DNA of 26,866 nt from a virus. The notes under the pieces are model-generated. The model saw only the letters and a list, made by a program, of their open reading frames with translations, ran no database searches and was not told where the DNA came from. This document shows positions 1 through 26,389 of the stretch, one piece after another (the stretch's first letter is position 1; each line of letters opens with the position of its first letter). Location: IMG/VR virus record IMGVR_UViG_3300043431_000350, positions 1 through 26,866 of that record. One strand, given 5' to 3'. A program made the translations under genes and the position numbers.

Positions 1-984
1 GCTGACCAGGATTGAGTCCGGAATCATCTTTTCCAGAAGGTTCCCCTCATCGTTCAGGTGGCACCAGACGAGCGCAGGCTGCCCGGTGTGGTTGACTAGG
101 TTAGCGACCTGCGAGCACCGCTCCTTGATCGTCCTGCGGCGCTCCTCGCGCTGTTCATCCAGCCCAACAGCCGGAAGTGAAAACAGCATCCCATCTGCGA
201 CCGTCTCAGACTCGACAACGTGCTCTACCTCACGCAGTGGCGGCAGGATGAAACGAGAATCATCGAACCCAAGGTCTGACGGCCGGCGAATTGCGCGCGC
301 CCACGAGCATACCCATCGCCAAAACGGGAGTTCTGCGTGGCCCTTCAGGCGCCACTTGATGACCTCTCCTGCGAACCGACCTGACGCGCTGTTGTTCAGG
401 TCGTTCTTGAAGAAGCGATTGAGCATGTCCATGTGCCCGAGGTGTCCAAGCGCCTCGCTAGACGTGCCAAGTTCCGTAAAGTCGTTCGGTGCTGCGGTTG
501 CGGTGGCCAGCAGGCGATACGGCAGCTTGCGCGCGAACGTCGTGATAGCCTGCCTGGTGGCCCCGCTGTAGCTCTTGAGAATGCTCGACTCGTCGCACGC
601 CACTCCGACGAACTGCGTAGCGTCGAACAGGTGCAGCTTCTCGTAGTTCGTTATCGTGATGCCTGCGTGTGGCACGCCATTGCGTGAGATGCGCGCCTCG
701 ATGTCGAACTTCTCTGCGTCCTTGGAGATCTGGTGCGTGACCGCTAGCGGCGTCAGCAGCAGCACGCGCCCGCCAGTCTTGCGAACGATGTTGTCGGCCC
801 ATACAAGCTCAATGGCCGTCTTGCCCAATCCGCAGTCCGCAAACACCGCAGCGCGACCCTTGCGCAGCGCCCACTCGGTAAGACTAGATTGAAAGTCGAA
901 CATCCAGCCCGGAAGTCGAACAGGATCAAACCCGTGATCGCCTCCGAGCTGTGACTTCTTGTCGAGAAAGTCGGCGTAGCTCAT
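1..984 (-). CDS. Phage SF2 (SNF2/DEAD-like) helicase, 3' end cut by window edge
   Basis: The frame is open from ATG at 984 to the window edge (328 codons), so the C-terminal part is missing. A Walker A motif, ADCGLGKT, lies at residues 49-56. A DEAD-box-like CDES follows at about 130-133, and a motif-III-like TATAAP at about 161-166. This order is that of the first RecA-like domain of superfamily 2 helicases or DNA translocases, which use ATP to unwind or move along DNA. The second RecA domain has only begun (PALVWCHLNDEG). The start overlaps the stop of the upstream 56-aa gene by 4 bp (ATGA), so it is translationally coupled and last in the leftward early operon. A replication or recombination role is inferred from the family and from the annealing protein on the other strand. 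A DNA-repair helicase or a packaging-related ATPase is less likely. Confidence 0.85.
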   Translation of the reverse strand, partial: MSYADFLDKKSQLGGDHGFDPVRLPGWMFDFQSSLTEWALRKGRAAVFADCGLGKTAIELVWADNIVRKTGGRVLLLTPLAVTHQISKDAEKFDIEARISRNGVPHAGITITNYEKLHLFDATQFVGVACDESSILKSYSGATRQAITTFARKLPYRLLATATAAPNDFTELGTSSEALGHLGHMDMLNRFFKNDLNNSASGRFAGEVIKWRLKGHAELPFWRWVCSWARAIRRPSDLGFDDSRFILPPLREVEHVVESETVADGMLFSLPAVGLDEQREERRRTIKERCSQVANLVNHTGQPALVWCHLNDEGNLLEKMIPDSILVS

Positions 985-1151
985 CCCTTGGCCTCGATCA
1001 GAGCCTTGATCTTGTTTGCCATCGCAACCGCTTCCACGATCCACGGCAGCACCAGCATCGACTCTACCGGCCCGCACTCGAGATTCGCGTCACTCAGGAA
1101 TTGAACAACCCACTCCGCATGCTGCGCCGCAGCTTTCAGGTTGTCATTCAT
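981..1151 (-). CDS. Small acidic protein, 56 aa, unknown function
   Basis: The ATG at 1151 overlaps the preceding stop by 4 bp (ATGA) and the TGA overlaps the helicase start by 4 bp. This tight double coupling is the main evidence that the gene is real. The predicted protein begins MNDNLKAAAQHAEWV and ends IKALIEAKG. It is largely helical, with a hydrophobic middle (MLVLPWIVEAVAMA) that is too short and mixed to be a clear membrane helix. I recognise no domain. Because it sits directly before the helicase it could be a helicase-associated factor, but that is only positional inference. Confidence 0.6.
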   Translation of the reverse strand: MNDNLKAAAQHAEWVVQFLSDANLECGPVESMLVLPWIVEAVAMANKIKALIEAKG

Positions 1152-1441
1152 ACGTCCATCTCCTTTGATTGCTCCCGCAGATCCGCCAGCGCAGCCATCC
1201 GCGTAGACCCGAACCCCTGCGGATCACCCGGCTCGTAGTCCTCCCAGACAGCCGTCCAGTCGTATTCCCGGCTGGCGATAGGCGGACTGCACTCATAGAC
1301 CCGCACAGGTCGGCCACCGATGCGAAAGCAGGGCGGTAGATCAGGTGCATAGTCGCCGTGCGTGCGCTGCCATTTTTCGGCGTGCGCCTTGTCGGCGTAG
1401 TATTCGCCGGCTTCGCGGTAGTCTGGTGCTTCGTGGGTCAT
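1148..1441 (-). CDS. Hypothetical phage protein, 97 aa
   Basis: I chose the ATG at 1441 because it overlaps the stop of the upstream zinc-ribbon-like gene by 4 bp. A longer in-frame start at 1504 exists but would run through that gene. The protein begins MTHEAPDYREAGEYYADK. Its C-terminal half has the pattern DWTAVWEDYEPGDPQGFGST followed by a short helix (AALADLREQ), a look I associate with small phage early proteins of unknown role. It has no cysteine pairs or membrane segment. The first 11 bases of the gene, ATGACCCACGA, are identical to those of the gene starting at 1727, which suggests shuffling of start cassettes. The function is unknown. Confidence 0.65.
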   Translation of the reverse strand: MTHEAPDYREAGEYYADKAHAEKWQRTHGDYAPDLPPCFRIGGRPVRVYECSPPIASREYDWTAVWEDYEPGDPQGFGSTRMAALADLREQSKEMDV

Positions 1442-1608
1442 GTCGGGTGTCCGTAGTGATACTTTCCGCACTTCATGCACTTGTACGCCTTCATGTAGTC
1501 CCATCGTCCGCGACGACTCGCTGAGTCCGCCTGCTCAAGAGTGTCGAATCGCTGCTTACTTCCGCAGGATTTTGAGAGCCCTCGGATTCGAGGTTTGGGC
1601 TTTCCCAT
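1438..1608 (-). CDS. Zinc-ribbon-like phage microprotein, 56 aa
   Basis: This short gene reads MGKPKPRIRGLSKSCGSKQR and ends KCMKCGKYHYGHPT. The pattern is a first Cys, then 'K-R-F-x-T-x-E-Q-A', then C-x2-C-G-x2-H, as in small phage zinc-ribbon proteins of the form 'CPxKxxFxTxExA...YxCxxCxxWHxT'. A zinc-binding nucleic-acid or protein-interaction role would follow from that fold. The TGA overlaps the next start by 4 bp (ATGA), which supports it. It shares 118 bp, out of frame, with the 3' half of the Cys-rich gene at 1491-1727, which is unusual. No strong Shine-Dalgarno precedes the ATG, so translation may depend on ribosomes already reading the upstream gene. Confidence 0.6.
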   Translation of the reverse strand: MGKPKPRIRGLSKSCGSKQRFDTLEQADSASRRGRWDYMKAYKCMKCGKYHYGHPT

Positions 1609-1727
1609 AGTTGTACAGGTCCAGTCTTAGTAAAGTTAGAGGCGTCAACGCATACGCGGGTCGAATAGCAGTGACGACTCTGGCGGAAATGCTTGCACGT
1701 CCTGCAATCTGTCAATTCGTGGGTCAT
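1491..1727 (-). CDS. Cys-rich small protein, 78 aa, possible zinc binding
   Basis: The ATG at 1727 overlaps the stop of the 106-aa gene upstream (ATGA). The N-terminal 44 residues contain CRTCKHF, a second pair CYSTRVC, and the segment TGPVQLWES. This arrangement (C-x2-C, about 10 residues, C-x5-C, then 'GPVxLW') recurs in short phage proteins that probably fold around one zinc ion. The remaining ~35 residues are Ser/Arg-rich, low in features, and overlap the zinc-ribbon gene in another frame. They may therefore be a dispensable tail, and the ancestral gene may have ended near residue 44. A longer frame reaching 1808 exists, but would overlap the upstream gene by more than 80 bp. The function is unknown. 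Confidence 0.55.
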   Translation of the reverse strand: MTHELTDCRTCKHFRQSRHCYSTRVCVDASNFTKTGPVQLWESPNLESEGSQNPAEVSSDSTLLSRRTQRVVADDGTT

Positions 1728-2044
1728 TCTTGGCCCCTGATGACTCGCGCGAAGTTTTGCGACGTCACATCCCACGCGCCCCCGTACTGCTCGACAGCCC
1801 TGGCGCACCGCTCGCGCTCTGACAAAACTGCTGCGTCACGCTCCCGAAGCAACCTGGCGCGATCTTCTATCATCAGACCAAGCGCGGCCACAGCACCAGA
1901 CGGAGCGCGACCTTCACAATTCTCGTCCCACCACCTAGCTGCATCCGCCGGCGATAGGTCTGCCAACTTGTAGTTGATGCGCCAGCAGTCCACATAGTCG
2001 TCGGTAACGATGTCTACCATTTCGCGCCAATGTTCCGTCTGCAT
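1724..2044 (-). CDS. Hypothetical phage protein, 106 aa
   Basis: The start at 2044 shares one base with the stop of the upstream winged-helix gene (TAATG), and its own stop overlaps the next start by 4 bp. The protein begins MQTEHWREMVDIVTDDYV. It contains DAARWWDENCEG, and a charged helix near the end (EDRARLLRERDAAVLSERER) followed by CARAVEQYGG. The 'ERERCAxxxE' helix resembles the one in the gene at 6722-7051 and is common in small phage early proteins that form coiled coils. There is no catalytic or membrane motif. The function is unknown. Confidence 0.65.
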   Translation of the reverse strand: MQTEHWREMVDIVTDDYVDCWRINYKLADLSPADAARWWDENCEGRAPSGAVAALGLMIEDRARLLRERDAAVLSERERCARAVEQYGGAWDVTSQNFARVIRGQE

Positions 2045-2574
2045 TACAGATACCTCCCAATTCCGAGCGAGGAAAATCCGCCGGCGATCTTCGCTTTCGC
2101 GCTAACCTGCACCTGGGCATGCTCGCCCATGAATTCAGGGCTTGGGATGATGGTTACCATGAACCCTGGCGGATAGATCACCTCGCCGCGCTTCGGGCTG
2201 GGCTTGATCGTCACGCCATCCACAGAAGGCTTCTCTGCCGGCAGCTTTTCGGCCCGTGTCTTGCGCGCAGCCTGCATCCTCGAGTACGTCGTCTTGCCAT
2301 ACTCGTTCGTGAGCGACCCGGGCTCGACCATCGCACCTACCGTCCCTCGTGTGCGCCGCTTCCACTCTCTAGCTGCTACAGCCGACGTAAACCAGCGCAG
2401 GCGCTGCCCGACATGACCGGCTTTGACCAGATGGCCGGCGGCGCGCATCTTCTCCAGTTTGCTGGACATCGACGTCGCAAGCAACTCAGTCGCTGCGGAA
2501 GCCTCGGCGCATGACACACCGTCAGGTCTAGCTGCCAGGCCCAGGATCACCTTCGATGCTTCGGACACGATCAT
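2044..2574 (-). CDS. Winged-helix-like DNA-binding protein, 176 aa
   Basis: The start at 2574 is set by AGGAGG six bases upstream of the ATG, the best ribosome-binding site of this operon. In-frame starts further up (2604, 2676) would read through the terminator-like hairpin. The first ~75 residues read like a winged helix: SEASKVILGLAARPDG, then an Ala/Ser-rich helix pair, then SKLEKMRAAGHLVKAG and a strand with RLRWF. The pattern 'MSxKLxKMxxAGxLxK' is that of MarR-like and other winged-helix wings and recognition helices. The C-terminal ~90 residues are basic, then rich in Pro and strands (PPGFMVTIIPSP). A regulatory or replication-initiation role is possible. The call is by resemblance only. 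Confidence 0.65.
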   Translation of the reverse strand: MIVSEASKVILGLAARPDGVSCAEASAATELLATSMSSKLEKMRAAGHLVKAGHVGQRLRWFTSAVAAREWKRRTRGTVGAMVEPGSLTNEYGKTTYSRMQAARKTRAEKLPAEKPSVDGVTIKPSPKRGEVIYPPGFMVTIIPSPEFMGEHAQVQVSAKAKIAGGFSSLGIGRYL

Positions 2575-2615
2575 GCCGCCCCTCCTGTTTCCGCCGTGAG
2601 TCATAGACGCTCCAG

Positions 2616-2651
2616 AAAACCCCCGACCAGTGGGACTACACCGGCCGGGGG
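2616..2651 (-). terminator. Rho-independent terminator-like hairpin in the leftward operon
   Basis: Read on the minus strand, CCCCCGGCCGG (2651-2641) can pair along its full length with CTGGTCGGGGG (2630-2620), giving 11 pairs including two G-U. The loop is 10 bases and TTTT follows (2619-2616). It lies between the stop of the 48-aa gene (2690) and the strong ribosome-binding site of the winged-helix gene (start 2574). It would therefore separate the repressor-proximal genes from the rest of the operon, ending or attenuating transcription. The T run is short, so read-through or control by an antiterminator is possible. Confidence 0.6.
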
Positions 2652-2689
2652 AAGGTCGCGCTGCCCGCAAAGACACGCGACGAGAACCC

Positions 2690-2836
2690 TCACAGCACCA
2701 CCTCTATTGCTTCGTCGATCTCCTCATCAGTCAGGTAAGGGAACGCTAACACCGCCGCAACGTAGGCAGCATCCCGCGTCAGACGCCAGTTATCGTGACG
2801 CAGGCTGCGAAGGAAAGCGAGCAGAGCTTCGTTCAT
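2690..2836 (-). CDS. Small acidic protein, 48 aa
   Basis: The gene starts with an ATG at 2836 that overlaps the stop of the HTH gene by 4 bp. The protein begins MNEALLAFLRSLRHDNWRLT and continues with DAAYVAAVLAFPYLTDEEID, ending in an acidic helix. It contains no cysteine or recognised domain. Being co-translated with the putative repressor, it could be an antirepressor or repressor partner, but nothing in the sequence proves it. A terminator-like hairpin follows about 40 bp after the stop, so this gene and the HTH gene may form a separate short transcript. Confidence 0.6.
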   Translation of the reverse strand: MNEALLAFLRSLRHDNWRLTRDAAYVAAVLAFPYLTDEEIDEAIEVVL

Positions 2837-3021
2837 TTGGCCCTCTTGCTCAGTCGTTTAGCAGCGGCAATCAACCGCTCGGCGGTCTGGAGCGTAGGAT
2901 CATTGCTGCCCCGCCTCAGCCGGAAAACTGTGCGTGTGGAGATGCCGGCCTCACGGGCCAGCGCGGATGCGCTGTACGCCCTGAGCGCACCGTCTAGAGA
3001 TAGTCGGATGTCTGTAGTCAT
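2833..3021 (-). CDS. Small helix-turn-helix regulator (Cro/repressor-like), 62 aa
   Basis: The protein has one helix-turn-helix: ASALAREAGISTRTVFRLRR, followed by GSNDPTLQTAERLIAAA. This is the usual XRE/Cro pattern in which the recognition helix is followed by 'P-T-x-x-T-x-x-x-L-x-x-A'. At 62 aa it has no room for a cleavable C-terminal dimerisation domain, so it is closer in size to Cro-type or small repressor proteins than to a full CI. It is the first gene leftward from the divergent control region, and three repeats that look like operators lie immediately upstream. A -10-like TAGGAT ends only seven bases before the ATG, so the message may be nearly leaderless. Binding to the repeats is inferred. 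Confidence 0.8.
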   Translation of the reverse strand: MTTDIRLSLDGALRAYSASALAREAGISTRTVFRLRRGSNDPTLQTAERLIAAAKRLSKRAK

Positions 3022-3027
3022 GCTTCG

Positions 3028-3056
3028 ATCCTATGCCATACATGTCTCCATTGCAA
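3028..3056 (-). promoter_or_regulatory. Candidate leftward promoter of the HTH gene
   Basis: On the minus strand a -35-like TTGCAA (3056-3051) is followed after 17 bases by a -10-like TAGGAT (3033-3028, four of six consensus bases). The expected start of transcription falls at or next to the A of the ATG (3021), so the transcript would be leaderless or nearly so. The first operator-like repeat (3033-3046) covers the spacer, which would allow autoregulation. The AGGA of the same hexamer could instead be a Shine-Dalgarno sequence of a transcript that starts further upstream. Confidence 0.4.
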
Positions 3057-3103
3057 GCCCTGGCTAATGTCATACTTGTCATGTCAACTATGCCACGCAT
3101 GTC
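3033..3103. repeat. Three operator-like direct repeats between divergent early operons
   Basis: ATGCCATACATGTC (3033-3046), ATGTCATACTTGTC (3067-3080) and ATGCCACGCATGTC (3090-3103) match each other at 12 of 14 positions for the first against each of the others. Start-to-start spacings are 34 and 23 bp. They occupy the only non-coding gap between the HTH gene and the rightward operon, the classic place for repressor operators. A consensus -35 hexamer TTGACA (3104-3109) for the rightward direction begins right after the third copy, so binding there would block rightward initiation. Confidence 0.6.
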
Positions 3104-3132
3104 TTGACAGACCGCGACATGTTCGGCACAGT
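3104..3132 (+). promoter_or_regulatory. Candidate rightward early promoter (good -35, poor -10)
   Basis: TTGACA at 3104-3109 is a perfect -35 hexamer. At 17 bp spacing the -10 position reads CACAGT (3127-3132), a weak match, so the promoter may need an activator or may be misplaced. It lies 24 bp upstream of the start at 3156 and adjoins the third operator-like repeat. Confidence 0.35.
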
Positions 3133-3155
3133 CGAGTCGTCAACAGGAGCAAAGT

Positions 3156-3452
3156 ATGGCAAAGCAAGTGATCAACGGATTCCTGACGGCCTATCACTGG
3201 CAGTTTCAGGAGCCCGGCGAAGTGTCCTGGGCGTTCAATTCCTGGGCTCCGGCCGCGGACGCGGATATGCTGCACCACTTCGCGTTCGCCCTCGAGTTCG
3301 ACGCGCCGGACATCAATGTGGTGGCCGCCCAGGTGGCGAGCCTCGAGGCGCAGAAGCTGGCTGCGCTGGCCGAGTACCAGAAGACGGTCGCGCAACTCAA
3401 CGAACGCCTGAGCAAGCTGCAGGCTATCGAGTGCAACACGGAGGCAGCATGA
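3156..3452 (+). CDS. First rightward early protein, 98 aa, C-terminal coiled coil
   Basis: The ATG at 3156 follows AGGAG with good spacing (ACAGGAGCAAAGTATG), and the gene is first in the rightward operon. Residues 1-50 are rich in aromatic residues (TAYHWQFQEPGEVSWAFNSW, then LHHFAFALEF). Residues 55-98 form a heptad-like helix (VAAQVASLEAQKLAALAEYQ, then VAQLNERLSKLQ), so an oligomer is likely. The family is not recognised. As the earliest rightward gene it could be an antirepressor, antiterminator or host-takeover protein, but the sequence does not decide this. Confidence 0.7.
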   Translation: MAKQVINGFLTAYHWQFQEPGEVSWAFNSWAPAADADMLHHFAFALEFDAPDINVVAAQVASLEAQKLAALAEYQKTVAQLNERLSKLQAIECNTEAA

Positions 3453-3727
3453 GGCTCGGGTCACCCGCCGCGATGGCTTGCGAGCCGTCGCTGTCCCCTC
3501 CCGAGTTAGACGAGGACGAGGGCCTGCTGTCGAATCAGGCGCTCGGAGAAACTACGGCCATGGTCGAGTACGAAGTCGGGCTATTCGGTTTGCCTACTGT
3601 CGCCGGCGCATGGATCGAGGGCAAGTTCGTCGAGGCCGAGGAATTCTCTCAACGCAGACTGACGGCCTGGACCGTTGCTATCACGCGCGAAATCGCCAAG
3701 GATCGGGAGATTGAGTCATGGGACTGA
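3449..3727 (+). CDS. Hypothetical phage early protein, 92 aa
   Basis: The ATG overlaps the preceding stop by 4 bp (ATGA), and GGAGG lies just upstream in the end of that gene. The protein has an acidic, disordered N-terminus (PPELDEDEGLL). A compact part follows with VEYEVGLFGLPTVAGAWIEG, KFVEAEEF and RLTAWTVAITREIAKD. No catalytic motif or membrane segment is visible. The function is unknown. Confidence 0.65.
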   Translation: MRLGSPAAMACEPSLSPPELDEDEGLLSNQALGETTAMVEYEVGLFGLPTVAGAWIEGKFVEAEEFSQRRLTAWTVAITREIAKDREIESWD

Positions 3728-3837
3728 TCGGCTTCGACGTCCTGGCCTACATCCTCGCAGGCGTCGGTGCTGCGGTCGCTGTCGTCGCGATGATGGCCTG
3801 GTGCGCAAGTGATCTTATCGACAGGGAGGATGTATGA
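3718..3837 (+). CDS. Single-span membrane microprotein, 39 aa
   Basis: The ATG at 3718 overlaps the upstream gene by 10 bp, and its TGA overlaps the next start by 4 bp. Residues 7-28 form one hydrophobic helix (VLAYILAGVGAAVAVVAMMA), followed by WCASDLIDREDV. It is probably an inner-membrane peptide. Such early phage membrane peptides often act in superinfection exclusion or host take-over, but that is inference from size and place alone. Confidence 0.6.
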   Translation: MGLIGFDVLAYILAGVGAAVAVVAMMAWCASDLIDREDV

Positions 3838-4064
3838 GCGAATGGCGCGGTGGACCGCCGCCGAGTGTTGGCTGGTGGCCGGCGAGCGTATGTCGAGCAC
3901 CGGACGCGATGCGCTGGTGGGATGGTCAGCGTTGGAGCGCCGTAGCGTGGCCCGCGATGACCGCAAGCCAGGCGGCCGCGAGGGCGGCAACCAGGGCGCA
4001 GCGGAAGGCGAACGTCAAATGGACAGACCGCCCAGCATCGTGGCCCGCCAGGAGCAAGACATGA
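3834..4064 (+). CDS. Trp-rich protein with 'RWWDG-W' motif, 76 aa
   Basis: GGGAGG lies seven bases upstream of the ATG. The protein starts MSEWRGGPPPSVGWWPAS and contains MRWWDGQRWSAVAW. 'RWWDGxxWS' is the signature of short Trp-rich modules (as in DUF2510-like proteins) that pack two Trp ladders. The rest is Ala/Arg-rich and probably helical or disordered. It overlaps both neighbours by 4 bp (ATGA). The molecular role is unknown. Similar modules in phage early regions may contact membranes or host proteins. Confidence 0.65.
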   Translation: MSEWRGGPPPSVGWWPASVCRAPDAMRWWDGQRWSAVAWPAMTASQAAARAATRAQRKANVKWTDRPASWPARSKT

Positions 4065-4210
4065 CCACCTTTCAACTCTACGCAGGAGCAGCAATCATGC
4101 GCCACGAATCCGAACAATGCCGGCGCAGCGATGCGGCCGTAGATGTGCTGTTTGCCGTCGTCCTGGGCGTGCTGGGCGCGCTCGCTCTTGTGCATTGGTT
4201 GGCATCGTGA
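4061..4210 (+). CDS. Small protein with C-terminal membrane helix, 49 aa
   Basis: The ATG at 4061 overlaps the previous stop by 4 bp, with GGAG ten bases upstream. The alternative ATG at 4097 would give a 37-aa peptide starting MRHESEQC. The C-terminus is a hydrophobic helix (VDVLFAVVLGVLGALALVHW) that should span the membrane with the N-terminus in the cytoplasm. It is the second membrane microprotein within 400 bp. The function is not recognisable. Confidence 0.55.
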   Translation: MTTFQLYAGAAIMRHESEQCRRSDAAVDVLFAVVLGVLGALALVHWLAS

Positions 4211-4317
4211 CCTGCCTGCGCCTGTATCTCTTGCTGCGGTCATACGGCTACTGCCGTCGAGCGGCCCTGCGCCGCGCCCTGTGCCTCGTGCGCCGCGACT
4301 GGCGCCGTGATTTCTGA
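4207..4317 (+). CDS. Arg-rich microprotein, 36 aa
   Basis: A GTG start at 4207 overlaps the upstream TGA by 4 bp (GTGA). The peptide reads VTCLRLYLLLRSYGYCRRAA followed by a basic helix (LRRALCLVRRDWRR) and ends DF. The motif 'LRLYLLLRxYGYxRRxALRxA' is one I associate with very short phage early proteins, which supports a real gene despite its size. It is an amphipathic, strongly basic helix and might bind nucleic acid or the membrane face. Confidence 0.5.
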   Translation: MTCLRLYLLLRSYGYCRRAALRRALCLVRRDWRRDF

Positions 4318-4567
4318 CATGGACAACTTGCAGTCAGACCCTCTTTTTTCCGCTTGGGTGGCGAATACCGTAGCTGCTTTGTCGGACTCTTTTAGCGTGT
4401 ATCCATGCGGGTTTCCAGCGAAGTTAGTGCCCACTACCGCAAAAAGTGGCGCCGCTGCTTGTCAAGGGGTTTCTGATGTTTTTTTCGACTCGACACAGCA
4501 AGCATTGGCGCGGGGTTGCTGGTTAGCGAGCACTAACTTTGAGTCTTGCAGTGAAAAACCGCATTGA
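4307..4567 (+). CDS. Doubtful ORF, 86 aa
   Basis: An open frame runs from GTG 4307 (or ATG 4319) to 4567. No Shine-Dalgarno sequence is visible. Third positions are T- and A-rich, unlike the neighbouring GC-rich genes, and the protein (DPLFSAWVANTVAALSDSF...) matches nothing I know. A 64-codon frame also exists on the other strand over 4240-4434. It may be a recently acquired gene or simply part of an untranslated leader. I keep it as a low-confidence entry because it follows the 36-aa gene with a short overlap. Confidence 0.25.
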   Translation: MISDMDNLQSDPLFSAWVANTVAALSDSFSVYPCGFPAKLVPTTAKSGAAACQGVSDVFFDSTQQALARGCWLASTNFESCSEKPH

Positions 4568-4670
4568 CAATCTGACTGGGTTGTTTCTTCGGCTTCGCCT
4601 TCGCAACACCCACACGAGTTGGGATTAACTCTCATCCCAAACCCTTCTCTCAGGAAATCCAGGGGGAACC
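4318..4670 (+). other. AT-richer gap / leader before the recombination genes
   Basis: This 353-base stretch holds no convincing gene. Three foldback elements are visible. A 10-bp perfect inverted repeat has arms AAGTTAGTGC (4421-4430) and GCACTAACTT (4530-4539). An imperfect stem has arms near 4577 and 4605 (TGGGTTG against CAACACCCA). A 7-bp stem TTGGGAT / ATCCCAA (4619-4625, 4634-4640) lies just upstream of the ribosome-binding site AGGGGG of the gene at 4671. A consensus -35 TTGACA at 4564-4569 has no good -10. It could be an mRNA leader with translational control or hold a second early promoter. Confidence 0.4.
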
Positions 4671-4796
4671 ATGAATCTACTCAGAGACATCCTCGCAGGC
4701 ATCCGCTGCGGCATCGAGCGGTACAAGCAACGCAGAGACTGGCGCAGGCGCGGCGTGTGGTTCGAGGAATCGCCAGACTGGCATAACCAATTCTGA
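4671..4796 (+). CDS. Basic microprotein, 41 aa
   Basis: A strong ribosome-binding site (AGGGGGAACC before ATG) precedes the peptide MNLLRDILAGIRCGIERYKQ, which continues RRDWRRRGVWFEESPDWHNQ and F. It begins with a short amphipathic helix and ends with an aromatic, acidic tail. The gene lies 8 bp before the annealing protein, so the two are probably co-transcribed. The function is unknown. Confidence 0.55.
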   Translation: MNLLRDILAGIRCGIERYKQRRDWRRRGVWFEESPDWHNQF

Positions 4797-4804
4797 AGGA
4801 CAAC

Positions 4805-5455
4805 ATGAGCGACTTACTGAAGATCAACGTCAACGATCACGTCGAGAAGAAGAACGGGCTCACGTACCTGTCCTGGGCCTGGGCCTGGGCCGAAGTGCTG
4901 AAGATTGACCCGTCTGCAAAATGGGAGCTTGTGGACTGGGGGGGCGGAGATAGCGCCGCTGTTCCGGTGTTCTTCTTCCCAGATGGGAGCGCAATGGTTA
5001 GCGTGAGCGTTCGCATTAAAGATGACACAAAAGCATCATTCCTTCCAGTAATGAACCACCGCAATCAGGCTATCAAGAATCCTGACGCCTTTGCTATCAA
5101 CACCGCCATCATGCGCTGCCTTGCCAAGGCTATCGCCATGCACGGGCTCGGGCTGTATATCTACGCTGGCGAGGACTTGCCGGAAGAAGACGCAACAGCG
5201 CCTGACGCAAAGACCGCTGGCGGTGTCATCAGCGCAGCGAAGGAAAGCGCCAAGGCTGTAGCGGGTGAAGTCAGCGAGGAGCGCAAGACCGAGCTTTACC
5301 GCGACCTTGACGAGGTTTTGTCGTTCGCAGAGCGCGGGCAAACAAAACCGCTGCTTTCGTGGTGGCTATCATTGACTGATAACAACGAGAAAATTCTCGC
5401 CCATGCCGAAATCCCCAGTGGGCTCCGTGCGTTCCTAAAGAAAAATGGCGGTTAA
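4805..5455 (+). CDS. Single-strand annealing protein, DUF1071/Sak3 family
   Basis: The protein is 216 aa and starts after AAGGA. It carries the hallmarks of DUF1071: NGLTYLSWAWAWAEV near the N-terminus, SFLPVMNHRNQAIKNPDAFA in the middle, and then INTAIMRCLAKAIAMHGLGL with IYAGEDLPE at about 96-126. Members of this group are phage recombinases that anneal complementary DNA strands, as RecT, Redbeta and Sak3 do. The last ~90 residues are helical and Ala-rich, a usual variable tail. The next gene is a probable single-stranded-DNA-binding protein, a pairing typical of phage recombination modules. Assignment to the family is confident; biochemical activity is inferred from it. Confidence 0.88.
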   Translation: MSDLLKINVNDHVEKKNGLTYLSWAWAWAEVLKIDPSAKWELVDWGGGDSAAVPVFFFPDGSAMVSVSVRIKDDTKASFLPVMNHRNQAIKNPDAFAINTAIMRCLAKAIAMHGLGLYIYAGEDLPEEDATAPDAKTAGGVISAAKESAKAVAGEVSEERKTELYRDLDEVLSFAERGQTKPLLSWWLSLTDNNEKILAHAEIPSGLRAFLKKNGG

Positions 5456-5771
5456 CACTATGCACATCACCATCGAACACCACAGCGGCAAATATCCGTC
5501 ATTCAACGTCAGCTTGCACAAGTCAGCCGGCCTCGAAGCCTTCCTCGTCATCAAAGGCGTGAAGATCGTCGACGGAGCGAAGGGCGAATTTCTGTCCTGG
5601 CCTGCGCGCAAGCTCGACTCAGGGAAATACTGGAATCACTGCTGGGCGAGCGATGCTTTCGCTGCGCACATCATGCAACTGGCGAAGGACACGTTGCCAA
5701 AGGACGTGCCCACGGGGCGCCCTGTTCGTGGCGGTCGAGTGGTTGATGATGACTTCGAAGCGCCGTTCTGA
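5445..5771 (+). CDS. Probable phage single-stranded-DNA-binding protein, 108 aa
   Basis: The protein has β-rich stretches (MHITIEHHSGKYPSFNVSLH, LEAFLVIKGVKIVDGAKGEF) and LSWPARKLDSGKYWNH, recalling SpoVG-like and other small phage DNA-binding proteins ('IKGxKIVDGxxGxFxxxP'). The C-terminus is acidic and ends DDDFEAPF, close in style to the bacterial SSB tail DDDIPF that recruits partner proteins. It follows the annealing protein with an 11-bp overlap if started at 5445. The ATG at 5460, just after the upstream stop, is an equally plausible start. Binding to single-stranded DNA in recombination is inferred from context, fold hints and the tail; it is not a classical OB-fold SSB by sequence. 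Confidence 0.65.
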   Translation: MAVNTMHITIEHHSGKYPSFNVSLHKSAGLEAFLVIKGVKIVDGAKGEFLSWPARKLDSGKYWNHCWASDAFAAHIMQLAKDTLPKDVPTGRPVRGGRVVDDDFEAPF

Positions 5772-5773
5772 AC

Positions 5774-5995
5774 ATGGACTACGCTTGTCTTTATACCCGC
5801 CTGAGAGCGGCTGAGTCGCAGATAAGTTCCGGCTACACATCTTCAGGATTGCGCAAACTACTGGATGACGCGGCTACTGCTGTGTTACAGGTTAGTGTCT
5901 TGACAGACGCGATATCGACCTGTCGCGCCCAGTGGATTCATAGCGTCAACGCAGAAAAGTGCCTGAAAGCTCTGGGAGAGGTGTCTGAACCATGA
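5774..5995 (+). CDS. Hypothetical phage protein, 73 aa
   Basis: The gene begins two bases after the upstream stop and its TGA overlaps the next start by 4 bp. The peptide starts MDYACLYTRLRAAESQI and is helical, with a Ser/Gly turn (SSGYTSSGLRKLL) and the end WIHSVNAEKCLKALGE. No motif is recognised. Its codon usage is less GC-rich than that of the following coiled-coil genes. Confidence 0.55.
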   Translation: MDYACLYTRLRAAESQISSGYTSSGLRKLLDDAATAVLQVSVLTDAISTCRAQWIHSVNAEKCLKALGEVSEP

Positions 5996-6384
5996 ACATC
6001 AACGACGCACTCGTCTATGCTGATGAGTTTGGTAACCCCTGGGCACCTGTAGACGTTGACGACGCTCTGACCTCACTCGCCACCGAGGTGCGCAGGCAGG
6101 CGCAGGAGATCGCAGACGCGAGCGGACTACGCGAACGGTTGTCCGCGCTGCTGACCGATACCGTCAACGCGCTGCGCGGCCCGCCACCAGAGCTGGTGCT
6201 ATGGAGTTGGCACGACCTGCCGGAACGCGCCGCTGCGATGGCGCAGGAGGTCGAGCGGCTGACGGCGCTTGCCGAGTGCAGGCTAGCCCATATCGCCGAG
6301 GACAGAAAACAGGCACTGGCGCGGCGGGACGAGCTTGCTGACGCGCGGGCGGCCATCGACGCAGCCATGAAGGACACACCATGA
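5992..6384 (+). CDS. Modular coiled-coil protein A, 130 aa
   Basis: It begins MNINDALVYADEFGNPWAPV and has two heptad-like helices, LATEVRRQAQEIADA (about 29-43) and AAMAQEVERLTALAECRLAH (about 79-98). It ends AIDAAMKDTP. The opening MNxNDAL, the helix LAxEVRR and the end AAMKDxP are shared with the next protein, so the two are paralogues or shuffled modules. Coupling is by ATGA overlap on both sides. The coiled coils suggest self-assembly or binding to a partner. No enzymatic motif is seen. Confidence 0.65.
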   Translation: MNINDALVYADEFGNPWAPVDVDDALTSLATEVRRQAQEIADASGLRERLSALLTDTVNALRGPPPELVLWSWHDLPERAAAMAQEVERLTALAECRLAHIAEDRKQALARRDELADARAAIDAAMKDTP

Positions 6385-6875
6385 ACGTCAACGACGCACT
6401 TCTGCGCGCAGACGTAGCGCATGACACAAACACATTTGGCGCAGTCGCACTCACTACCCTCGCCGCCGAGGTGCGCAGGCTGAACGCGCAGGCGCAGGCC
6501 GACGCCGACGAGATATTCAGGCTTCAGGTGTCGCACTCGGCGCTGTATGCGGATGTTGAGCGGCTACGGGCTGCGCTCAATTGGTACGCAGACGAAGCTC
6601 GCGCATGCGCGAAGAACAGCGGCAGCGCCAAGCACGGTGCGCCAGAGGCACTGCTCGCAAGTGTGACCGTGCTTGCGCTTGACGGCGGGCGCAGGGCAGA
6701 CGCAGCCATGAAGGACGCACCATGACCGAACAAACACTCCCGCGAAAGTTGCTAGACGTTGCGTGCCGCATGCGCGTGCGCGAGTCGTTGTTTCGTGACG
6801 ATGAACTAATCGACGAAGGATCACATGCGCTGAAGGCCGCGACGGATGAAGTCGCACGGCAGGCGCAGGAGATCG
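6095..6875 (+). repeat. Dispersed 18-bp repeats shared by the coiled-coil genes
   Basis: GGCAGGCGCAGGAGATCG occurs at 6095-6112 and 6858-6875. GACGCAGCCATGAAGGAC occurs at 6358-6375 and 6699-6716. Each lies in the same reading frame in its gene. The repeats mark duplicated or exchanged modules within the three-gene cluster at 5992-7051 and are not separate mobile elements. Confidence 0.65.
6381..6725 (+). CDS. Modular coiled-coil protein B, 114 aa
   Basis: It is a paralogue of the preceding gene. It begins MNVNDALLRADVAHDTN, has the helix LAAEVRRLNAQAQADADEIF and a second helix YADVERLRAALNWYADEARA, and ends ADAAMKDAP. The 18 bases GACGCAGCCATGAAGGAC near its 3' end (6699-6716) also occur near the 3' end of the preceding gene (6358-6375), showing DNA-level duplication or exchange. 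It overlaps both neighbours by 4 bp. The role is unknown. Confidence 0.65.
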   Translation: MNVNDALLRADVAHDTNTFGAVALTTLAAEVRRLNAQAQADADEIFRLQVSHSALYADVERLRAALNWYADEARACAKNSGSAKHGAPEALLASVTVLALDGGRRADAAMKDAP

Positions 6876-7051
6876 AGCGGCTGCGGGCCGAGCTTGCAGA
6901 GGCTGTGACGGCGCTGCCGCAGGTGGTGCGCAACGAGCGCGAGCGGTGTGCGAAAGAGTGTGAACGCATATCGCAGCAGTACAAGGACGCTCCCGGTGGG
7001 CACGCTCTGGAGCGAGCGGCACATGCGATCCGCGCGCAACTTCCGGACTGA
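6722..7051 (+). CDS. Modular coiled-coil protein C, 109 aa
   Basis: The N-terminal 45 residues (MTEQTLPRKLLDVACRMRV...) are unrelated to proteins A and B. The central helix VARQAQEIERLRAELAEAVT is encoded in part by the same 18 bases (GGCAGGCGCAGGAGATCG, 6858-6875) as protein A uses at 6095-6112. It continues with NERERCAKECERISQQY and ends in a helix that includes RAAHAIRAQLPD. The last region, 'ERERCAxxxExxxxxY...ALERAAxAIRA', is common at the end of small phage early proteins. The family is therefore modular: a swapped head on a shared coiled coil. Confidence 0.65.
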   Translation: MTEQTLPRKLLDVACRMRVRESLFRDDELIDEGSHALKAATDEVARQAQEIERLRAELAEAVTALPQVVRNERERCAKECERISQQYKDAPGGHALERAAHAIRAQLPD

Positions 7052-7060
7052 GGACACACC

Positions 7061-7369
7061 ATGACCACACTACGTGAAGCCGCGCAGGCAGCGCTTGACC
7101 GAATCGAGAACAGCCAGCAATTCGGCGCTCTGGCCGACGAAATTGCCACGGTCCGAGCCGCACTAGCGCCGCCTGAGCCTGAGCCGGTGGCGTGGGGCTG
7201 TTTCAAAGACGGCGCGCTGCTGGTAGATCTGGTCGGCAACGAGGCTGATGTCGACTTCTGGTGCCGCTCGACGGACGAGGAGCTGCAAGGCGTTGTAAAG
7301 GGCGCGCTCTACGCTGCTAACGTTCGAGCTAAGCCGGACGGCACGGTACGCCGTGACGGCTCGGCTTGA
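7061..7369 (+). CDS. Hypothetical phage protein, 102 aa
   Basis: The gene begins MTTLREAAQAALDRIENSQQ, with a helix then LADEIATVRAALAPPEPEPV, and a β-rich C-terminal part (AWGCFKDGALLVDLVGNEAD, then WCRSTDEELQGVVKGALYAA). The layout, a helical head ending 'LRxALAxPEPEPVA' followed by a small sheet domain, is frequent in phage early proteins of unknown role. GAGGACACACC precedes the ATG. It is not coupled by overlap, standing 9 bp after the previous stop. Confidence 0.6.
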   Translation: MTTLREAAQAALDRIENSQQFGALADEIATVRAALAPPEPEPVAWGCFKDGALLVDLVGNEADVDFWCRSTDEELQGVVKGALYAANVRAKPDGTVRRDGSA

Positions 7370-7412
7370 GCGACGAGGTTAGGCAGCACCCGACAACTGT
7401 AGGAGAGCGACG

Positions 7413-7718
7413 ATGCAACGGCAGACGACACCATACACGCTGACACAGTACCTTGCGGCCGGCTGCCAGACGCTGACCCGCGACGGGAAGCTAGACCTGA
7501 TCGGTGCGGGCATCCACGCAGTGACGGAAGGCATGCCATGCAACGGGTGCCACATGCTCAAGCTGCGGTGCGCGTCGTTCGAGAAACTGCGCGCCGCAGA
7601 TACGCCACTGCCCAAGGCCGCGCAACCTGGCGAGACTGTGCGTGCAGAGGCAGCGCGGCGCGGCTTGAGCATTGGCGAAGTACGCCGACAACGGCAAGCG
7701 GCTGTTGGTGCTGCCTAA
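7413..7718 (+). CDS. Small protein with Cys cluster and HTH-like end, 101 aa
   Basis: The ATG at 7413 follows AGGAGA with good spacing. The protein begins MQRQTTPYTLTQYLAAGCQT. The middle has C-x2-C-x6-C (MPCNGCHMLKLRC), which could bind a metal. The C-terminal AEAARRGLSIGEVRRQRQAA looks like a short helix-turn-helix of the sort that ends some phage regulators ('AAxxGLSxxEVRRxR'). It is the last of the tightly spaced early genes before the structured non-coding stretch. A regulatory role is possible but unproven. Confidence 0.65.
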   Translation: MQRQTTPYTLTQYLAAGCQTLTRDGKLDLIGAGIHAVTEGMPCNGCHMLKLRCASFEKLRAADTPLPKAAQPGETVRAEAARRGLSIGEVRRQRQAAVGAA

Positions 7719-8239
7719 CTTAAATTCGCCCGCACCCCCTGCCGCATAACACCGCCCAGCCGATGCTAGGAATTCGCAGGCATGGTTACCCTTACCCGTG
7801 TCCTCCCCGTCCCGGGGGTTCACAGCCTTTATCGCAGTGCCTTGCCTTGTGAGGGCTATCGGAGGCCGGTCCGCTCCCCGTTGAGCCTTGGGATGACGAA
7901 ACGCTGTGCTTGTCGGGCTGCCGCTTCGTGGCTCACTAAGTACGGTTCAGAAACTGCGTGTATCCATTTCGCTTGCGCTACTTTGACGGGCGGGTCACCC
8001 GGGCATCACTCCGTGATCGGTGCCTCCGTGCAGTTGAGCCCTCAGCCGTGCTATCCACGCTTTTAGCCCACCGCGCGCCTGCTGGCGGTAGAAACAGCGA
8101 AGCCCACAAGTCCGCTGTCTCGGTGGTCGCGCACCGCCCATTTCTGGGTTCGACAGCAGGCTTGTGGGCTCTGCATTGTCTGTCACTGCGCGACCAATGA
8201 CTAGATGTGATTATATACAGCACTCCTTGCATCGTCAAC
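7719..8239 (+). ncRNA. Candidate structured RNA or cis element, about 500 bp without a convincing gene
   Basis: The stretch is GC-rich and full of foldback pairs. TGAGCC (7882-7887) pairs with GGCTCA (7930-7935) outside an ACGAAACG / CGCTTCGT stem (7896-7903, 7922-7929). CCCCG/CGGGG, CGGGTCACCCG (7991-8001), ATCAC/GTGAT (8005-8017), and CGTG/CACG followed by TTTT (8047-8064) are smaller hairpins. The strongest structure is at 8101-8196. An ATG-started frame at 7782-8066 (94 codons) has no ribosome-binding site and a composition unlike the neighbours. A regulatory RNA, an origin, or an attachment or packaging site are all possible. I recognise no known RNA family. Confidence 0.35.
8101..8196 (+). 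other. Long hairpin with possible pseudoknot
   Basis: AGCCCACAAGTCCGCTGTC (8101-8119) pairs with GACAGCAGGCTTGTGGGCT (8152-8170): 17 Watson-Crick pairs, one G-U and one mismatch. The 32-base loop contains small stems of its own. Loop bases TGGTCGCGCA (8124-8133) are perfectly complementary to TGCGCGACCA (8187-8196) downstream of the hairpin, the geometry of an H-type pseudoknot. As DNA the same arms could be protein-binding inverted repeats. No T run follows, so it is not a simple terminator. Confidence 0.55.
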
Positions 8240-8686
8240 ATGCTGACACTTACCCCTATCAATCTTGATGAGGCAAACGCCTTCGTTGCGATGCACCATC
8301 GGCACCATAAGCCGGTTCCAGGGGCTAAATTCTCGCTGGCTGTCAGCGACGACGACGGAAAAGTTCGTGGGGTTGCGATAGTTGGTAGGCCTGTAGCGCG
8401 CATGTCCGATGATGGGTGGACACTAGAGGTCAACAGGGTATGCACTGACGGGGCAAAGAATGCCTGCTCAATGCTTTACGGAGCAGCATGGCGGGCCTCA
8501 AAAGCCCTAGGGTTCAAGCGCCTGATTACCTACACGCTTCCAGAAGAGGGAGGGGTTAGCCTACGAGCTGCAGGGTGGACTTTCATAGGACTAAAGGGCG
8601 GCGGAAACTGGAATGTTCCGAGCCGACCGAGAGTCGATACGGCAGAAGCACTTAGAGGACAGAAGTGCTTATGGCACGCGTCTTAG
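8240..8686 (+). CDS. XF1762-family protein (GNAT-like fold), 148 aa
   Basis: It begins MLTLTPINLDEANAFVAMHH and continues with the HHRHHKPVPG signature, AIVGRPVARMSDDGWTLEVN, RVCTDGAKNACSMLYGAAWR, ALGFKRLITYTLPEEGGVSL and RAAGW. These are the marks of the XF1762-like phage/prophage family, whose order of strands and 'S-x-L-Y-G-A-A-W-R' helix recalls GNAT acyltransferases. The actual reaction is unknown to me. I chose the ATG at 8240 because the family starts there; an in-frame GTG at 8207 adds 11 poorly fitting residues. It follows the structured region and ends four bases from the convergent lysis gene. Confidence 0.8.
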   Translation: MLTLTPINLDEANAFVAMHHRHHKPVPGAKFSLAVSDDDGKVRGVAIVGRPVARMSDDGWTLEVNRVCTDGAKNACSMLYGAAWRASKALGFKRLITYTLPEEGGVSLRAAGWTFIGLKGGGNWNVPSRPRVDTAEALRGQKCLWHAS

Positions 8687-8701
8687 ATTTCTACTTAGAA
8701 A
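8646..8701. terminator. Hairpins at the convergent gene junction
   Basis: AAGCACTT (8646-8653) and AAGTGCTT (8663-8670) form an 8-bp stem inside the end of the XF1762 gene. TTTCTA and TAGAAA (8688-8693, 8696-8701) form a second inverted repeat across the junction of the two convergent stops. Neither has a clear T run, so bidirectional termination is only suggested by position. Confidence 0.3.
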
Positions 8702-9716
8702 GCAACTCTGTCTTGCGCTGACTACTGGCCGAAGTGCCGAACCAGAACGCAGTAATCCCGCCAGTCAACAGCCCGCCGAAGATGGCGCCCAGCACCATCG
8801 CCTTGATGTCGTTGCTGAACCCTTCGCGGAATAGCGTGGCATACAGGGCGATGTATACAAGAGGCAGCAGCGCCATCGTGATCCAGAACGCGGGCGAGTG
8901 CCAGAACCTTGCCTCACCGCTAGAGAAAGCAGCGTCAGATTTGCGAGCTCCCTCTATCCCGCCTCCCCCGGCTTCTGAGATGGCGAACCATTGAGACTCG
9001 ACCGCTTTAGCCACCGCAGCAGCAGCGGCAGGATCGCTCTGGACCCGCTCGGCGACCTCTTGCTCATTGGCTGCGCCTAGCGCCTCTTTGGCAATCTCGA
9101 ACACGGCACTCGCCGCTTTCACGTTTCGCTCTGCCACCGGACTGCCGGGCTTGAATATGCTGGTGAGTCTCGGGATGGCGTCGATCAGCGTTGGCAGTAG
9201 CGCAGTGATGAGTGGGATGGCTGGCAGCATCTTCTTCTCCGGTTCGTTGTGTACACTTTCAGTCGGAAACTGTGCATTTCCTGACGATGTGTCTAGTTTT
9301 GCGCCAGAAATGAACATTGCGCGTTCGGCTTCTCTGCGCTTGACCAGCCCAGGCAACTCTCGCCCGCCGCCCTTGTTCCATCGCAGGAACTCGTCGGCAG
9401 CAGGTTCGCCAGCATTGATTTTGCGCAGTAGAGTCGACTTTGTGAACGCTCCAACGCCGATATTAAAGATCAAGGACACCAGAGCATCATGCTGCCCCTG
9501 AGTCAGTGGAACGTGTACGTTGTCAGCGATGCAACGCTCGCAGACCTCAATGTCTTCGCGCAGCAACTCCTCAGCGCGCTCGATGGTGATCGTGTTCTCA
9601 GTGGTCCGAGCGTGGCCCCAGCCGATAGTCCTGATCCCGACCCCATCGTCGTAGGCGTTGAGCCTTAGCCCTTCGTGACGCTTGATTGCGTCGATGCCGG
9701 ATTGGCTGACTCTCAC
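8691..9716 (-). CDS. Endolysin (T4-type lysozyme, GH24) fused to a holin-like membrane domain
   Basis: A GTG at 9716 overlaps the upstream TGA (GTGA), giving 341 aa in one uninterrupted frame. Residues 1-140 are a T4-like muramidase. Catalytic Glu15, Asp24 and Thr30 have the 9- and 15-residue spacing of T4 lysozyme Glu11-Asp20-Thr26, followed by GWGH and LVSLIFNIGVGAF. No signal or anchor segment precedes it. From Met163 a second unit begins (MLPAIPLITALLPTLIDAIP) with a helical part and two strong membrane helices (about 271-294 and 303-328: FWITMALLPLVYIALYATLF, VLGAIFGGLLTGGITAFWFG). The second unit looks like a separate holin-type gene in layout. Peptidoglycan cleavage is well supported; holin action is inferred. 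GGAG before Met163 suggests a second product. Confidence 0.85.
   Translation of the reverse strand: MRVSQSGIDAIKRHEGLRLNAYDDGVGIRTIGWGHARTTENTITIERAEELLREDIEVCERCIADNVHVPLTQGQHDALVSLIFNIGVGAFTKSTLLRKINAGEPAADEFLRWNKGGGRELPGLVKRREAERAMFISGAKLDTSSGNAQFPTESVHNEPEKKMLPAIPLITALLPTLIDAIPRLTSIFKPGSPVAERNVKAASAVFEIAKEALGAANEQEVAERVQSDPAAAAAVAKAVESQWFAISEAGGGGIEGARKSDAAFSSGEARFWHSPAFWITMALLPLVYIALYATLFREGFSNDIKAMVLGAIFGGLLTGGITAFWFGTSASSQRKTELLSK
9228..9240 (-). promoter_or_regulatory. Internal Shine-Dalgarno and ATG for a separate holin-like product
   Basis: On the minus strand GGAGAAGAAGATG (9240-9228) places GGAG six bases before an in-frame ATG at 9230, exactly at the junction of the lysozyme and membrane domains. 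Initiation here would give a 179-aa protein ending at 8691. The site is as strong as the ribosome-binding sites of the surrounding genes. That is what one expects if two genes have merged or if both the fusion and the free holin are made. Confidence 0.55.
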
Positions 9717-9934
9717 CGCGACACCCCAGGCAGATGCTGATGCCGATTGAGCAGCAGCATGACCTGCGCGAACCGCTGATTGATGCCCGTCTGCATCGCC
9801 ACCAGTAGGCGCAAGATGTCTCGGTTCGTCGGCTCGGCGCCAGACCTGACCGGGCAATCAGCCACGGGCCGGCCCGCCTCGGCGCCGCAGTCGTCGGCGC
9901 ACGGGCACCATTGGCAATCGCCGACCGCGCTCAT
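9713..9934 (-). CDS. Cys-rich small protein in the lysis region, 73 aa
   Basis: The ATG at 9934 overlaps the upstream stop by 4 bp and the TGA overlaps the endolysin GTG. The N-terminal half has four clustered cysteines in CQWCPCADDC plus one in VADCPV, so a metal site or disulphides are possible. The second half is a helix, NRDILRLLVAMQTGINQRFA followed by QVMLLLNRHQ, that may be a coiled coil. No signal peptide is seen. It is probably a minor lysis or accessory protein; the function is unknown. Confidence 0.6.
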   Translation of the reverse strand: MSAVGDCQWCPCADDCGAEAGRPVADCPVRSGAEPTNRDILRLLVAMQTGINQRFAQVMLLLNRHQHLPGVSR

Positions 9935-25877: not shown

Positions 25878-26389
25878 CTGAACATCTCCGCGACTTCAGA
25901 CAGCGTGAGACTGCCCTCAACCACCAGCATGCCAGGGGATGCTGTCGACCCGTTGCCCGTGGAGAAAACACGTTCCATTCGGTTCGCCTTGCGACGACTC
26001 ATGCCCGAGATGTGGGCGCGATTCGCAACCGCGCCCGCACCGGCCCCGCTGAAAATGTCAGCGAATGCCGCCTGGATGTTTGTCAGTGACGGGTTCACCG
26101 TTCCCGTGTCGTTGAACATCTCTCGGAATGCGTCGCGCTCGCCTTGGCTGCGGTTGATGTAACCGCCAGTGCTACCACCCCACGTAAAAGTCGTTGCGTC
26201 AGGACCGACACCGACCAGAACCTCGTGCCGTGTGAGTGTGGTTTTGTAGACCCACCAATCCGGAGAGAAGTCGAGCGCCATCAGCGCGATCAGGCCGTTG
26301 TAATCCGTCGTCGGGCCGCTGGTCAGCGGCACCAGCGCCGGATCGGCCAGGATGGCGGCCTTGAGGGCGGTCAGTTGGGTGGGGGTCAT
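25874..26389 (-). CDS. Conserved phage structural-region protein, 171 aa
   Basis: The protein starts MTPTQLTALKAAILADPALV, then WWVYKTTLTRHEVLVG and INRSQGERDAFREMFNDTGT. It ends RRKANRMERVFSTGNGSTAS and PGMLVVEGSLTLSEVAEM. The combination 'MTPxQLxxLKAAIxADPxL... ERxFxTGxGSxAxPxxLxxEGxLTxxEV' is a pattern I have seen in proteins of many proteobacterial phages, near virion genes. Its role is not known to me. It overlaps the glycosyltransferase by 4 bp (TTGA), so is co-translated with it. Confidence 0.75.
   Translation of the reverse strand: MTPTQLTALKAAILADPALVPLTSGPTTDYNGLIALMALDFSPDWWVYKTTLTRHEVLVGVGPDATTFTWGGSTGGYINRSQGERDAFREMFNDTGTVNPSLTNIQAAFADIFSGAGAGAVANRAHISGMSRRKANRMERVFSTGNGSTASPGMLVVEGSLTLSEVAEMFS

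Follow-up and report, generated by a model that had tools for sequence, protein, structure and literature searches.

Gene order and coding content around the gap

Why does a stretch of about 500 bases in a gene-packed phage genome carry no gene? The question arises in a viral record 26,866 bases long, which was analyzed over its whole length and is called the window below. Its genes run leftward over positions ~1–3020 and rightward over ~3104–8686; a second leftward block extends from the right end to 8691 and consists of head and tail genes with the endolysin as its final member. The gap lies in the rightward block, between a gene ending at 7718 and a gene for a Mom-like DNA-modification protein, in the following setting:

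4805–5455, rightward block: Sak single-strand annealing protein, accompanied by small early genes and then the Mom-like gene
7314–7386, plus strand: attC-like integron recombination site upstream of the next gene
7413–7718, plus strand: small gene bounded by a 13-nt perfect inverted repeat that carries attC-type R boxes (GTTAGGCAGCACC at 7378–7390, GGTGCTGCCTAAC at 7707–7719)
7719–8091, minus strand: rest of the gap outside the structured element described below, non-coding and of ordinary folding, no terminator seen; possible 3' part of a transcript
8240–8686, plus strand: Mom-like gene of the XF1762 family (DNA modification), with its leader opposite the candidate non-coding RNA

The initial annotation had recognized no convincing gene in these roughly 500 bases, and this holds for 7719–8205. 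Codon usage in none of the six frames reaches that of the window's own genes, the open reading frames (ORFs) of the gap have no match in Pfam or PHROGs, a 94-aa ORF retrieved nothing from phages by tblastn, and tblastx of the gap against 2.6 Mb of related loci gave no match above noise. With all of these analyses against it, a coding or frameshifted gene was rejected, as was a 37-aa minus-strand ORF (8176–8063) that lies wholly inside the structured region and has no Shine-Dalgarno sequence, family or relative. Searches of the window for tRNA and tmRNA genes found none. The gap thus exists as described, but it is not unique in this genome, because a second gene-poor stretch occupies ~4320–4670. 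The latter contains a 10-nt perfect inverted repeat (AAGTTAGTGC ... GCACTAACTT) and T-runs, and its folding is at the level of shuffled sequence.

Fold and promoter on the minus strand

Compared with shuffled sequences, the whole gap has a z-score of −0.21 on the plus strand and a weakly better one of −1.25 on the minus strand. The nested inverted repeats at 7882–7935, which had been put forward as the structured part of the gap, are present in the letters, but the region containing them (7815–7945) is no more stably folded than its shuffled versions (z +0.97/+0.32), and these stems were therefore discarded as a structured element. What stands out is a hairpin at 8085–8185 that had been overlooked (plus strand z −5.05, minus strand z −5.89, 200 shuffles). 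When the whole window was scanned in 110-nt segments on both strands (1,338 segments), the minus strand at 8081 had the lowest z-score of all (−6.4; runner-up −4.7). The structured element comprises 8092–8201 on the minus strand, where a 7-bp hairpin (H0) is followed without a linker by a two-headed, Y-shaped hairpin that ranks first among the window's inverted repeats. An enclosing inverted repeat (7761–7771/8224–8234) was considered as possible transposon ends and rejected, since by our own estimate about as many are expected by chance. From the right, the features are:

8233–8238, minus strand: −35 hexamer TTGACG of a leftward sigma70 promoter match
8210–8215, minus strand: −10 hexamer TATAAT, with a 17-nt spacer to the −35 hexamer
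8182–8201, minus strand: H0, 5'-terminal 7-bp hairpin, loop GUCGCG (8194–8189), pair probabilities 0.92–1.0 for any assumed 3' end
8092–8181, minus strand: Y-shaped hairpin with two apical hairpins on a stem of 11 bp plus 8 bp, A-U rich in its outer 7 bp
8137–8148, minus strand: apical hairpin 1, CCCA-GAAA-UGGG, a GNRA tetraloop on this strand only
8121–8136, minus strand: apical hairpin 2, loop CGCGAC (8131–8126), perfect complement of the H0 loop

Taken together, H0 and the main Y-stem have pair probabilities of mostly at least 0.9, wherever the 3' end is placed. The putative promoter, likewise overlooked at first, is a match to sigma70 by sequence: TTGACG-17-TATAAT on the minus strand from 8238 to 8210 agrees with the consensus at 11 of 12 positions, and no other site in the window reaches 10/12. 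In random sequences with the window's composition, matches of at least 11/12 occur 0.017 times per window length, and none of 500 random sequences of the gap's size contained such a promoter. From the usual distance between −10 and +1, the RNA is predicted to start at about 8202 (A8202), which puts H0 (8201–8182) at +2 and the Y-hairpin (8181–8092) directly after it. Neither the promoter nor the lowest-z fold was picked on account of the other. That the best promoter and the best fold of the window lie in register on one strand indicates a leftward non-coding RNA gene. Our preferred reading, to which we assign a probability of about 0.42, is that the gap holds such a gene and that it acts by antisense or convergent repression of the Mom-like gene. 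The product is most likely a small untranslated RNA of at least ~120 nt opposite the start of this gene and, judging from the promoter match, is probably made from the leftward promoter.

The energy of the Y-hairpin alone does not tell the strands apart, because it is nearly equal on both (−51.8 kcal/mol on the plus and −49.9 kcal/mol on the minus strand); for the span 8083–8202 the values are −58.7 and −59.0 kcal/mol, respectively. One U.G pair in H0, which is a mismatch on the plus strand, and the GAAA tetraloop suggest that minus is the RNA strand. A functional RNA was among the explanations offered by the initial annotation, and the promoter, the position of H0 at +2 and the register of the Y-hairpin speak for it, albeit in another part of the gap and on the opposite strand. 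Testing promoter and fold together on both strands pointed to a candidate RNA gene, whereas the listing of inverted repeats had given the wrong place and strand.

The same hairpin could instead be a bidirectional terminator or insulator that separates the rightward early operon from leftward late transcription, the promoter being incidental or belonging to a separate unit. Transcription does converge here, with the late leftward genes ending at 8691 and the early rightward ones reaching 7718/8686, and the hairpin, bordered to the left and right by moderately T-rich sequence, is stable on both strands. We nevertheless consider this function rather unlikely: a search of 7000–9000 for intrinsic terminators found no T-run and 0 terminator-like sites, the two-headed loop and the stem are unlike those of usual terminators, and the promoter, the register of H0 and the complementary loops would all be left as coincidences.

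Integron-like surroundings and search for relatives

The left neighbor of the gap has features reminiscent of integron cassettes. The boxes around gene 7413–7718 read GTTAGGC and GCCTAAC, with 0.25 such 13-nt pairs expected by chance per window. The site at 7314–7386 folds with R and L helices and resembles three repeated sites in phage contig L268, although its score alone does not exceed chance. Contig L268, which is otherwise unrelated to the window, carries its attC-like sites at ~2889–2957, 3290–3372 and 3949–4003 around small genes. The one viral relative of gene 7413–7718 is encoded there, flanked by these repeated sites, and searches of genome contigs found no relatives of the gene. 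A cluster of attC sites without integrase (CALIN) in phages is a possible explanation for the sites in both contigs. Integron cassettes and such clusters do occur in phages (PMC9892861), and ORF-less cassettes can have promoters on either strand and antisense-strand activity, with sRNA-Xcc1 cited as cassette-encoded (PMC6557892).

The gap might accordingly be the leftover of a phage-captured integron array, either an ORF-less cassette or decaying DNA with a promoter, that is now functionless. The attC-type boxes bounding gene 7413–7718, the position of its sole relative between attC-like sites and the precedents cited above agree with such a remnant, a reading that we nevertheless regard as unlikely. 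Neither a scan nor inspection by eye of 7719–8240 found a right attC half (L'/R'), that is, a GTT with a matching L box; thus, no right boundary is present and the gap is not established as a cassette. Moreover, decayed DNA would not be expected to keep both of the window's best signals in register. The GTTGAGCC repeats at 7880 and 8033 were rejected as cassette boundaries, being attributable to chance by our own estimate. It is plausible that DNA was captured or rearranged at 7719. The proposed leftward RNA gene resembles sRNA-Xcc1 and ORF-less cassettes in that a non-coding segment with its own promoter adjoins a cassette-like gene, and differs from them by the incomplete right-side attC and by matching no Rfam family.

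Consistent with the earlier failure to recognize a known RNA family, Rfam covariance models, including those of GOLLD, ROOL, OLE and phage pRNA, gave chance matches only (snoU13, below threshold and elsewhere; mir-462; MAT2A), and no family matched the segment. No homologue of the gap or of the candidate RNA was found in phage and plasmid records (word size 11), in the related loci (nhmmer and blastn), with a single-sequence covariance model in the related loci and five records, or by DNA search of 399 + 299 + 369 genomes (~1,000), drawn blindly with respect to the host. Two short matches in genomes of the order of an Achromobacter record (32–37 nt, 84–88%) were judged to be chance, as were exact 17–18-mer and stem-pattern matches in IMG/VR and GTDB, which had no likeness beyond the pattern. 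Relatives of the endolysin and the helicase were abandoned as a path to syntenic gaps for want of synteny. With no homologue from these searches, the case for a non-coding RNA is based on one sequence.

Across 80 relatives, the Mom-like gene as a rule abuts its upstream gene (median distance −1), and in none does an antisense promoter scoring 10/12 or better lie near its start. A conserved antisense promoter upstream of Mom genes was therefore rejected, and antisense control of Mom is not a family trait. Given these relatives and the cassette-like left neighbor, the segment looks acquired and particular to this phage.

Possible action on the Mom-like gene

The Mom-like gene scores above curated cut-offs (29.3 versus 27.1, and 210 bits versus 50 for NF045478). 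No Shine-Dalgarno sequence precedes its ATG at 8240, and the leftward promoter lies inside its leader. Unusually tight regulation is a known trait of the Mom of phage Mu, and Mu mom is controlled after transcription. By comparison with the Com/mom leader in Mu, the hairpin could be a plus-strand structured leader of the Mom-like mRNA that controls translation in cis. Its end lies 26–59 nt before the possible starts GTG 8207 and ATG 8240, and the missing Shine-Dalgarno sequence and the post-transcriptional control in Mu would fit this role. A leader of this kind appears improbable, however, as the start codon is outside the hairpin, no Com-like gene was recognized, the minus-strand promoter would be unexplained, and most relatives of the Mom-like gene have no room for it. 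A DNA-level site (replication origin, packaging or attachment), as also envisaged initially, is very improbable although the gap is non-coding and has the best inverted repeat of the window, because neither iterons nor direct repeats above chance level occur, GC is ~0.60 except in the −10 region, and no adjoining integrase or terminase was recognized.

For the preferred leftward RNA gene, the following mechanism can be proposed. The near-consensus sigma70 promoter (8238–8210) would start an RNA at ~8202, and the first ~120 nt of this RNA would form the 5'-terminal hairpin stacked directly on the Y-shaped hairpin. Running against the rightward early operon, the RNA would be fully complementary to operon transcripts that read into the Mom-like gene, which makes antisense or convergent repression its likeliest mode of action. 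If constitutive, it could hold the Mom-like gene low by antisense pairing, convergent transcription or both. RNA polymerase at the promoter, whose −35 box is located directly before the mom ATG, may add to this repression, and stronger expression later would override it. Provided that the RNA is made, the odds that it acts on the Mom-like gene are even or somewhat better, the remainder falling to targets in trans or a role as RNA scaffold. If it is transcribed, the small set of known antisense or structured phage RNAs would gain an orphan small RNA, and the finding would suggest that an RNA controls a Mom-like anti-restriction modification gene.

By analogy, the best reading of this RNA is an antisense or structured small RNA similar to lambda OOP, with a putative target and function. 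OOP RNA opposes cII (PMC5869508). Like lambda OOP and P22 sar, the RNA would be short and leftward, driven by a strong host-type promoter against a rightward early operon, and would adjoin a gene whose product harms if mistimed (for OOP and CII, PMC5869508). Unlike them, it would lie opposite the leader of the next gene instead of the 3' end of a gene, and it has a two-headed structure, no terminator and no sequence relation to either. Of the OOP-type features, the strong promoter aimed against the early operon is present as a sequence match, and an intrinsic terminator giving a short discrete RNA is absent in 7000–9000. Because a terminator was sought and not found, and repression is inferred, we use OOP versus cII as the nearest working model and do not claim membership in the OOP kind. 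As an orphan phage small RNA the locus is a good candidate: its kind is known, its sequence is new and its function is putative.

The two complementary loops invite a further comparison. GUCGCG in H0 and CGCGAC in the second Y-loop are exactly complementary and belong to a 10-nt perfect inverted repeat; the chance of two random loops of the same composition matching in this way is 0.00075, before allowing for the few loops inspected. Since H0 on the Y-stem is predicted to point away from the Y-head, intermolecular loop pairing seems easier than intramolecular pairing. A new self-assembling phage RNA, in which the H0 loop would bind the Y-loop of the next molecule by 6 perfect pairs to form dimers or rings as in phi29 pRNA, is nonetheless a long shot. 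The likeness to phi29 pRNA consists in a ~120-nt phage RNA with mutually perfectly complementary hairpin loops; the differences are the missing Rfam match, the other type of phage, the lack of a terminase link and the single sequence available here. Such a self-assembling RNA class could possibly have been spread by integron-type capture. Kissing loops occur in the non-coding RNAs GOLLD, ROOL and OLE of phages or bacteria (PMC12286853). GOLLD and ROOL measure ~650 to >800 nt, covary and are often found near tRNA islands; in contrast to these RNAs and OLE, only ~120 nt fold unusually in the present case, with no tRNAs and no Rfam match.

Elsewhere in the window, divergent promoters occupy ~2833–3150, where the minus strand encodes a small HTH-like protein and ATGTC-type half sites recur; this region looks like a repressor/early-promoter switch, i.e., that of a temperate phage. 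The endolysin (8691–9857) comes last in the late operon, and in the related contig L087 it precedes homologues of the genes at 26389–25224. Judging from this gene order, the lysis gene may have moved within the late operon between the window and contig L087.
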